Under the pieces are notes generated by a model, which was given only the letters and a program-made list of their open reading frames with translations, was not told the origin of the DNA and ran no database searches. A stretch of DNA of 34,075 nucleotides, from the NCBI GenBank assembly GCA_028707065.1, contig JAQTUZ010000017.1, positions 1 to 34,075 on the forward strand, written 5' to 3'. Shown piece by piece: positions 22,958-34,075 of this stretch (position 1 is the stretch's first letter; each line of letters opens with the position of its first letter). The translations under genes and the position numbers were made by a program. Source of the stretch: Patescibacteria group bacterium. GTDB lineage: Bacteria > Patescibacteriota > Patescibacteriia > Patescibacteriales > WJLG01.

Positions 22958-23017
22958 GTCCCCTCCTCGGGAGGGGTGGCCGCGCCTCGCGGACGGGGAG
23001 GGTCTATTACTGACATT
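22958..23017. repeat. GC-rich palindromic element, spacer copy 2
   Basis: This is the inverse of 10442-10501 with one mismatch in 60 bases, including the 7-10 AT-rich bases beyond the GC core (TCTATTACTGRCATTA). The core palindrome is CCCCTCCTCGGGAGGGG. High identity over 12 kb apart suggests a recent copy or gene conversion. Confidence 0.9.
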
Positions 23018-23027
23018 ATTTCAAAAA

Positions 23028-23242
23028 TCTTTGCCACTTTTTTTAAAAAAAGTGGCGCAAAAAACTGCGCGCAGGGACAAATTTTGGGACGCTTCGCTAT
23101 GAAACCTAGCAAAATTGCTATACTCGTCCGCTTTTATTTATAAATTTATTATAATAAAGAAGCGGCCTTCGGACAACGCAATTTTGCACGGTTTCCACGC
23201 TGCGCGTCTTATCCAAAATTTTCCAATGCGCGCTACAAGGAA
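23028..23242 (+). ncRNA. Structured repeat element, copy A (candidate RNA or DNA hairpin element)
   Basis: The element begins with a perfect 24-base palindrome GCCAC-T7-A7-GTGGC (23033-23056), then CTGCGCGCAG. A long hairpin follows: AAATTTTGG (23079-23087) with CCAAAATTT (23213-23221), GACGC (23088-23092) with GCGTC (23204-23208), GAAACC (23101-23106) with GGTTTC (23190-23195), and GCAAAATTGC (23109-23118) with GCAATTTTGC (23178-23187). The apical arm pairs CCGCTT with AAGCGG. It ends AATGCGCGCTACAAGG, 30 bases before the CAP-gene TTGACA. Copy B at 29821-29995 keeps all these stems with different bases. Whether it acts as RNA, a DNA hairpin or a mobile element is unknown. Confidence 0.6.
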
Positions 23243-29803: not shown

Positions 29804-29820
29804 CGACCACTATTAATATT

Positions 29821-29995
29821 CCTTATAGCGAGCATTGAAAATTTCCGTTAAGTCACGAGCGTAGAAGCCGTGTAAAATTTCACTGTTTGAGCGCGCCTCG
29901 CGCGAGTTTGAAATTTTACTAGGCTTCCTAGCGGAGTGATAGGAAATTTTCACCTGCGAGCAGTTTTTGCGCCACTTTTTTAAAAAAGTGGCAAA
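29821..29995 (-). ncRNA. Structured repeat element, copy B (candidate RNA or DNA hairpin element)
   Basis: On the minus strand it begins with the perfect palindrome GCCAC-T6-A6-GTGGC (29971-29992), then CTGCTCGCAG. The hairpin stems are TGAAAATTTCC (29942-29952 region) with GGAAATTTTCA (29836-29846), TCAC with GTGA (29936-29939 with 29853-29856), GAAGCC with GGCTTC (29922-29927 with 29864-29869) and GTAAAATTTC with GAAATTTTAC (29910-29919 with 29872-29881). The apical arm is CTCGCGCGAG-rich. It ends AATGCTCGCTATAAGG. Each stem differs in sequence from copy A on both sides, keeping the pairing. Confidence 0.6.
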
Positions 29996-31298: not shown

Positions 31299-31983
31299 CA
31301 TTTCTTAATCGTCTGTTACCAAACGTATGGACTATACCACCATCCGGTTTTAACCGGAGGTCAACGTGTTAGCAATGCTCTTCGCATCACTCTCTCCCTG
31401 TGCGGGATCAGTCTCTACGGGGTTAAATTATGCCTCTTCCTTTTTTTGGAGTAGTTAAGTTCCCTGAACTTATCTATCATACCAGCCAATATTTCAAAAT
31501 CTTTTTGATCTTTGACGTTCTCTTTCAGCTCAAATATCTTGATCATCAATTCCGCCTGACGTCTTTTTAAGATCAAATAAGGTTTTACTTGGGACAGAAA
31601 ATCGACGATGTCATTTTTTTTATTGACGACATATTCCATTATTCCGTCTTTTCGTTCTCTCATATAACCGGCTCCGACCAGAGCGCAAACTCTCGCGAAG
31701 TTTTCTTTTTCTTTTTTGGCTTGGAAGAAGGCGATGCAGGGAGAAATCTGGAATCCGAACCGATAGGTCGGATTAGGTTTCAGCCTGACATAGATACTTC
31801 CATCACCATCGAGAAAACCGGCTAAATAAGCCAAATTTTTGACTGTGATGTTTTTAGACATAATCAACTTCCCTCGGTATTATCCTAACATGTGACAGGT
31901 TATTTTGCAATAACTAATGTCAGGACTTCACCGATATGAGTTGACTTTTTCGAATTCGATTACTCGAATAAGCCGCCAAATTG
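31299..31983 (-). other. Group I intron in 23S rRNA at position 2593 (685 nt)
   Basis: Removing it restores AACCGT/CGTAAGACAGG, the expected 23S sequence. The upstream exon ends in U and the intron ends in G, as group I introns require. P1 can form between exon CCGU and intron GCGG with a U-G pair at the splice site. Core pieces are seen: P/Q-like CGGU...ACCG (P4) before the open frame, and R/S-like GAGACUGA...GGUAUAGUCC giving the P7 GACU/AGUC pair after it. The site matches the well-known I-CreI intron position. It carries the 31415-31861 gene. Confidence 0.88.
31415..31861 (-). CDS. LAGLIDADG homing endonuclease in 23S intron (site 2593)
   Basis: A 148-residue protein from ATG 31861 (a TTG two codons earlier is possible). 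The single LAGLIDADG helix reads LAYLAGFLDGDGSIYVRL with the catalytic acidic residue Asp in 'LDGDGS'. One motif per chain means it should act as a homodimer, as I-CreI does. The middle has 'FQISPCIAFFQAKKEKENF' and the end 'LMIKIFELKENVKDQ'. It would cut intron-less 23S genes at this site and so spread the intron. GAGGGAAG lies a few bases before the start. The gene ends inside the intron core, before the R element. Length is close to the 163 residues of I-CreI. Confidence 0.9.
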   Translation of the reverse strand: MSKNITVKNLAYLAGFLDGDGSIYVRLKPNPTYRFGFQISPCIAFFQAKKEKENFARVCALVGAGYMRERKDGIMEYVVNKKNDIVDFLSQVKPYLILKRRQAELMIKIFELKENVKDQKDFEILAGMIDKFRELNYSKKRKRHNLTP

Positions 31984-32009
31984 ACGGTTTGAACCCAGCT
32001 CGCGTGCCT

Positions 32010-32040
<31 letters not shown>

Positions 32041-32593
32041 GCTTCTACACCCCCAGGATGAGACGGGCCGACATCGAGGTGCCGAACCTGGTCGTCGCTG
32101 TGGACGCTTGGACCAGACTAGCCTGTTATCCCCAGAGTAGCTTTTATCCGATGAGCTTCCACCATCCTATATTGGATGGTCGGATCACTAAGTTCTGCTT
32201 TCGCAACTGCTCGACGTGTCAGTCTTGCAGTAAAGCCGGCTTGTGCCTTTGCGCTATCTCCCGGGTTTCCATTCCGGGATAGCCGACCTTTGTAAACGCC
32301 TCAGTTACTTTTTATGAGGCATCCGCCCCAGACAAACTACCCGCCAGACACTGTTCCCCGGAAGGATTCACTTCCTAGGGTAAGAATTTAGAACAAACAA
32401 GGGTGGTATCTCACTGGTGCCCGAAGGCTCCCACCTATTCTGAACATGCGTATCCCAAATCCAATATCAAGTTATAGTAAAGCTTCATGGGGTCTTTTCG
32501 TCCAGCTATGGTTAATGAGCATCTTCACTCATCCTGCAATTTCGCCGAGTGCATCGTTGAGACAGCGCCCAACTAGTTACGCCATTCAAGCAC

Positions 32594-33458
<865 letters not shown>

Positions 33459-34075
33459 ACCTTAGGACGATTATAGTTATCGCCGGCGTTCATCCACGCT
33501 TCGGTTCAAGGCTTCACCTTGCGGTTAACCCCTCTCCTTAACGTTTGGACACTGGCCAGGCGTCACTCCCTATACATCCTCTTACGAGTTAGCAGAGAGC
33601 TGTGTTTTTGGTAAACAGTCCGTTGGGCTCTTTCGCTGCGGCCGATCTTGCGATCGGCAGGCCTTCTTGCGAACTTACGGCCGATTTTTTGCCGAGTTCC
33701 TTAACGATGATTCTCTCGTGCACCTTAGTCTTCTCGACTCGCCAACCTGTGTCGGTTTTAGTACGGGTACCGTTTCCTTAACCCTAGAGAGTTTTCTGGG
33801 AAGTCCCTCCCCGCAAATTGACGATCTATTGCTAGACCATCTGCATACGACCTCTTGAAATATCGCTCCGGATTTGCCTGGAGCTATTCTTGAAGCAATA
33901 AACGCATATACCAATATCGCGCTTGCGGTTCGAAACTTCGTTATCCCATTGGAAAAAAACGGTAGTGCTGGAATATTAACCAGCTTATCCATCGGCTACG
34001 CCCCCATTACAAAGGCCTCGTCTTAGGACCGACTAACCCTGGGCCGATTTACGTTGCCCAGGAAACCTTATGCTT

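Follow-up and report, generated by a model that had tools for sequence, protein, structure and literature searches.

A repeated, covarying hairpin element in Patescibacteria, possibly a mobile DNA element with a conserved fold

Introduction

Some mobile DNA is recognized by its folded shape. Integron attC sites keep their shape while their sequence drifts, with fixed extrahelical bases and a variable tip. In the IS200/IS605 (Y1) elements, the hairpins of the single-strand ends are the recognition signals, and there is no target duplication. A different kind of palindromic DNA is represented by REP sequences, which are 20-40 bp long, carry a GTAG/CGTC tag and are moved by RAYT (TnpA-REP). These are reported to lie at gene 3' ends and to be rare between divergent genes, and G.T pairs are frequent in their stems (PMC3733652).

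Here we describe an element found in a 34,075-nt stretch of DNA, analysed as a whole and called the window below, from the 1.5 Mb genome of a Patescibacteria group bacterium (contig JAQTUZ010000017.1). An earlier note on this stretch, made from its letters, had described a structured element in two copies with compensatory changes, and left its nature open between a regulatory RNA, a DNA hairpin recognised by a protein and a non-coding mobile element. We favour, with modest confidence, a non-coding, non-autonomous mobile DNA element whose conserved fold is one of DNA, as a single-strand hairpin or a cruciform.

Results

Anatomy of the element

Both of the copies noticed earlier, with their common ends and every pairing change listed for them, are indeed present in the sequence. 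Copy 1 occupies positions 23030..23242 on the + strand (147 bits, E 3.3e-36) and copy 2 positions 29819..29995 on the - strand (140 bits), the scores being those of R1, a covariance model built from 16 copies, all from Patescibacteria. The exact extent common to the two is TTTGCCAC...AAGGAA, and they are alike in ends, inner loops and fold. Read in the orientation of the earlier note, the element begins with a small hairpin (H1) whose stem is a T-run/A-run, followed by an A-run and then by a hairpin of ~150 nt. In the long hairpin, the outer stem is followed by a stem of the AAATTT type and by a stem block that varies; the CTA/ACG inner loop separates this block from the GAAGCC/GGCTTC stem, and the TA/AC inner loop comes between that stem and the stem AAAATT/AATTTT, beyond which lies the tip, ACTC[...]TCAAACA.

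In copy 1, H1 (GCCACTTTTTTTAAAAAAAGTGGC) lies at 23033..23056 (+) and the long hairpin, as defined by folding and covariation, at 23065..23240 (+). Its stems are the outer GCGCGCA/TGCGCGC, AAATTTTGG/CCAAAATTT, GACGC/GCGTC, GAAACC/GGTTTC and GCAAAATTGC/GCAATTTTGC, and the inner mismatch loops CTA/ACG and TA/AC are fixed. A variable tip module (23122..23177, +) is bordered by conserved ACTC...C(G/A)(G/A)ACA, with columns at 1.5-2.0 bits. Copy 2 has its H1 at 29971..29992 (-) and its long hairpin at 29821..29963 (-), the latter with an alternative outer stem block, TTTCCTATCAC/GTGACTTAACGGAAA, and a short tip, AACTCG-stem-CTCAAACA, at 29884..29908 (-).

Across copies the element measures 177-267 nt and the tip varies in length, but its borders, AACTC[...]CTCAAACA, are invariant, and the information content of the unpaired tip columns A-C-T and T-C..C-A is 1.5-2.0 bits. 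The ends are of two kinds, TTTGCCAC/AAGGAA and TGCTCCGC/GGTCGCA. The A-run between the two hairpins is present in 42 of 46 copies, and an H1-like hairpin stands upstream in 42 of 46, compared with 11% of random background windows.

Other palindromes accompany the element. A separate REP-like palindrome, CCCCTCCTCGGGAGGGG...GACGGGGAGGG (22960..23002), adjoins copy 1 and is not part of it; about every second copy has this CCCCTC...GAGGGG palindrome with GGGGTGGGTCTATTCCTGACATTATT directly at its left end. In some copies, other repeat palindromes are inserted after H1 and ahead of the long hairpin, or replace the upper arm, and further short GC-rich palindromes are nested inside elements.

Copy number and spread

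The number of two copies given in the earlier note is too low for the genome, which contains about 24. An exact pattern finds 6 copies, BLAST ~20 places, and R1 24-26 full or partial copies. More copies occur in related genomes, as the reading in the earlier note required, with at least 10 in a congeneric species (G001) within the 745 kb read. The element was found in 34 genomes in a survey of 384 relatives and in 5 of 380 genomes drawn evenly from the phylum, two of these five being related at the rank of "same phylum" only. The distribution across Patescibacteria is patchy, as seen with a covariance model that loses strongly diverged forms. Three places have two copies side by side in opposite orientation, resembling REP doublets (G029 C6:856-1160, G029 C84:6132-6431 and G178 C30:443-836). 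Directly downstream of one copy in genome G011 is a weak T-box-like match (L139:1783-1937; 35 bits, cut-off 93).

Fold and covariation

The two copies in the window fold with z-scores of -6.7 to -8.4, and none of 200 dinucleotide shuffles is equally stable. In an alignment of 53 copies, 92.6% of cells are paired, compared with 76.5% in shuffles and 28-54% when the structure is slid along the alignment. Double changes occur in 24 of the 28 pairs and in 237 cells, as opposed to 62 after shuffling; one-sided standard changes account for only 17 cells. None of 500 shuffles reaches the observed value on any of five covariation measures. Under a stricter, tree-aware null in the style of R-scape, written for this analysis, 3 of the 28 pairs reach E<0.05 when all column pairs are tested, and 13 of 28 pass if the E-values are rescaled to the structure pairs alone; no pair outside the structure is significant with all column pairs tested. 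Covariation support is therefore weaker than the simple shuffles imply, yet clean, and it keeps its significance with 53 copies aligned, which was the second requirement of the earlier reading.

The earlier note took covariation between the two copies as the mark of a selected fold. A conserved fold with compensatory change is borne out, but covariation is not in itself proof of selection, since concerted double changes also come from template switching from one palindrome arm to the other; block-wise changes of this kind have been proposed for RNA hairpins (PMC8794818). The outer stem block of the element comes in two versions, TTTTGGGACGC.../GCGTC...CCAAAA and TTTCCTATCAC.../GTGATTACGGAAA, and the tip in two types; these are freely recombined among copies, and there are hybrid copies with unmatched arms (L040, L053, L062, L373 and L374). 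Hybrids followed by template-switch repair would give the block-wise double changes, and template switching may account for part of the covariation without selection.

Taken to its end, the same argument yields the main rival to a mobile element: neutral palindromes without function, whose arms are recopied by replication template switching and which are spread by recombination or by enzymes since lost. Block-wise double changes, near-pure Watson-Crick stems and hybrids with mismatched arms are all as this rival would have them. Template switching should, however, erase the inner mismatch loops, which are conserved, and an unpaired tip sequence should not persist across phyla, as this one does. 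The conservation of the mismatch loops and the tip speaks against a wholly mutational origin of the structure, and we regard the neutral account as unlikely, though it is the strongest of the alternatives.

Pair letters: DNA or RNA

The consensus pairs of the 53 copies comprise 1264 Watson-Crick, 19 G.T, 28 A.C and 75 other pairs. G.T thus makes up 1.5% of the pairs and does not exceed A.C. In an RNA fold, wobble pairs are expected to outnumber A.C pairs on the strand of the RNA, and they do so on neither strand of the element. The tRNA stems of the same genomes contain 4.3% G.T according to ARAGORN, which reports no A.C and so gives a one-sided control. Because the pairs are almost purely Watson-Crick, folded DNA is indicated over RNA; the pair letters favour a constraint on the DNA arms, or a process of copying between arms, over an RNA.

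The alternative of a structured regulatory or trans-acting RNA gene in many copies draws on the strong covariation and single fold, and on the U-run that follows the hairpin on the opposite strand in 42 of 46 copies. Folding energies had also seemed to single out that strand as a functional RNA, but dinucleotide shuffles give an equal energy gap, so the preference is an effect of composition. The recent copies in G011 have no common promoter-like sequence in their flanks beyond the element ends. Given the nearly pure Watson-Crick pairs, with G.T (19) no more frequent than A.C (28), and positions that differ between congeneric species, we consider an RNA gene quite improbable. Of the options offered in the earlier note, the protein-recognised DNA hairpin and the non-coding mobile element, taken together, suit the element best, and the regulatory RNA is not favoured.

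The same note knew of no named family that fits, and we agree: relaxed Rfam scans of related loci give no match on the element, and at gathering level the only Rfam matches in the window are 23S and 5S rRNA. Nor did we find a paper that names the element, including by its tip sequence, in a literature coverage lying mostly outside subscription papers. The 23S rRNA gene (31916-34075, -) probably holds an intron, because it has more bases than the model spans and contains a LAGLIDADG endonuclease ORF (32700-33272). A second LAGLIDADG ORF (31415-31867) lies between the 23S and 5S genes.

Genomic location and mobility

At seven sites of the home genome, both flanks can be found on one stretch of the congeneric genome G001, and the element is absent from all seven. 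The flanks of copy 1 are 23 bp apart there, while the spacer in the home genome consists of the element and the neighbouring palindrome. Conversely, none of eight G001 element loci compared shares its gene flanks with a home-genome copy, although the elements of the two genomes are 85-93% identical. Absence at seven of seven two-flank orthologous sites means that the element moves or turns over. One spacer of genus g5 contains the element in both species, so retention also occurs. No pre-insertion site clean at base resolution was obtained from the congeneric comparison, since the congeneric species is only ~75-85% identical, and a deletion rather than an insertion could be the cause of single absences. 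The copies in G011 are recent and very similar, and their ends are sharp; no target-site duplication is seen by eye at these or at other copies.

The element sits at gene 3' ends, and its start is often only a few bases away from a stop codon. Its neighbours are convergent in 24 cases, in the same direction in 41 and divergent in 4 (n=69), with genes approximated by long ORFs in both respects. Placement beyond stop codons and in the spacers of convergent genes, together with a hairpin and U-run in one orientation, would suit transcription punctuation, as a terminator or insulator. The orientation is, however, unrelated to which gene would be terminated: in 51 of 69 cases, the strand with the U-run faces against the neighbouring gene. 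Termination has no need of the conserved tip and inner-loop sequence, and the congeneric species lacks the element at the same places. We consider this explanation very improbable. An apparent bias in replication strand (35 versus 18 overall) is not seen in the home genus and is explained by gene direction. Carriage of the window element by a phage or plasmid was also considered and dropped, there being no DNA match.

The search for a partner enzyme

Neither a Y1 transposase nor a RAYT is present in the home genome. Among relatives, Y1/RAYT genes occur in 58 of 117 genomes and in 13 of 23 element carriers, which is no association, and RAYT loci are not flanked by the element, 19 of 20 Y1/RAYT loci having none nearby. 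A reverse transcriptase is found in 14 of 23 carriers and 60 of 117 genomes overall, and is absent from G011 in spite of its recent copies. Most element-rich genomes have 1-2 recombinases of PF00589, counted as one family; G005 has 4, and every element-free genome has one. Element-rich G001, G011 and G024 have only one, presumably the housekeeping Xer. No partner was found among these candidates, Y1 and the reverse transcriptase showing no association and PF00589 not being distinctive.

These results bear on whether the element belongs to the GTAG/CGTC REPs that RAYT moves. The habitat is alike, intergenic, at 3' ends and rarely between divergent genes, and paired inverted copies occur. At 177-267 bp, however, the element is much larger than a REP, no GTAG/CGTC tag is seen at its ends, and it is near only one of 20 Y1/RAYT loci. 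The RAYT-like gene of G011 (C6:87419 region; L260:1935-1978, 2252-2317) is flanked by palindromes of its own, GTAGGAACATAGCATGCTATGTTCCTAC, which look like a patescibacterial REP pair of the GTAG type. We give hardly any credence to membership in this family.

Occurrence in other phyla

R1 also matches outside the Patescibacteria. Cultured Ilyobacter polytropus (Fusobacteriota) has 9 copies on a 961-kb plasmid (best E 5.6e-9), and all four that were checked are intergenic. One viral contig has 4 copies, and a plasmid of Aureibacter (Bacteroidota) has 2 fainter ones. The Ilyobacter copies fall into two subtypes: AATAAGC/GCTTATT in one is AATCAGC/GCTGATT in the other, through double changes of A-T to C-G, and CTTGAT/ATCAAG in one is CTTGAA/TTCAAG in the other, where the H1 loop and the bases that follow the A-run have changed to match. 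The latter complementarity recurs in several other contigs (among L306, L352, L293, L297, L338, L325, L360 and L363); the H1 loop could possibly pair with the bases after the A-run in a covarying pseudoknot. In Aureibacter tunicatorum, the element on pAT2 (L359/L361) adjoins a tandem pair of tyrosine recombinase genes, the whole ~8-kb block being duplicated, and another copy of the tip lies on pAT6 between cas5d and cas7d.

In an Aminicenantes MAG (JAGLSW; L190, L192, L195, L197, L198 and L203), a similar long hairpin with the same tip lies inside a ~290-bp element that has the terminal repeats GTAAC...GTTAC and duplications of 8 bp, and that we take to be IS66-like. The tip pattern also occurs in many IMG/VR contigs, and in a good share of them it caps a long hairpin that has an A/T hairpin ahead of it; the most frequent matches are coding sequence and are disregarded.

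Common descent across phyla is not proven, and recurrent transfer or convergence is possible. We suggest tentatively, and with some doubt, a single superfamily of mobile folded DNA in Patescibacteria, Fusobacteriota, Bacteroidota and probably more phyla, read by a putative hairpin-specific recombinase or host factor. Its common grammar, equally tentative, would be an H1 hairpin, an A-run, a long hairpin with CTA/ACG-type inner loops and the invariant tip AACTC/CTCARACA.

Discussion

The reading of the element as mobile DNA with a conserved fold draws directly on the copies themselves, their fold and covariation, the purity of their Watson-Crick pairs, the absences at orthologous sites, the 3'-end location, the hybrids and the recurrence in several phyla. 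From these we infer a partner enzyme, folded DNA as its substrate and a mode of transposition. The stems of the long hairpin are free to drift, changing in Watson-Crick pairs, and the inner mismatch loops and the tip AACTC/CTCAAACA are kept constant. In the mechanism that we propose, a putative enzyme acting in trans would recognise the folded DNA by its shape and fixed loops. It would move or copy this DNA into AT-rich spacers, most often immediately beyond the end of a gene, and would leave no target-site duplication. Within a genome, copies would swap arms and tips, and template switching would re-match the arms of hybrids.

If this is true, the element is a widespread bacterial mobile DNA known by its shape and not by its sequence, and recognition by shape would explain why neither similarity searches nor RNA libraries pick it up. 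The element would likewise offer a clean natural case in which selection on a DNA fold can be separated from the upkeep of palindromes by template switching, which bears on how covariation is read everywhere. The nine copies in a cultured anaerobe, I. polytropus DSM 2926, make the element directly testable.

The REP/BIME sequences and their RAYTs (PMC3733652, PMC8266576) resemble the element in that they, too, are non-coding palindromes scattered over the 3' ends of genes, with a patchy occurrence among species and with paired and nested copies. The element differs from a REP in being 5-10 times longer and in having a two-part anatomy, a fixed tip and inner loops, G.T-poor stems and no link to RAYT. 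Like MITEs, it is small, non-coding, multi-copy and hairpin-forming, but it has neither the conserved terminal inverted-repeat sequence nor the target duplication of a MITE of a DDE transposon; in the Aminicenantes MAG, a hairpin similar to the element is found inside a MITE with 8-bp duplications. It shares the lack of target duplication with IS200/IS605, whose Y1 transposase is missing here and shows no association with the presence of the element. As for attC sites, the paired R boxes RYYYAAC/GTTRRRY are both present in none of 46 copies and no cassette array is seen around the element. The parallel with attC lies in the architecture: a shape that is kept while the sequence drifts, fixed loops and a variable tip.
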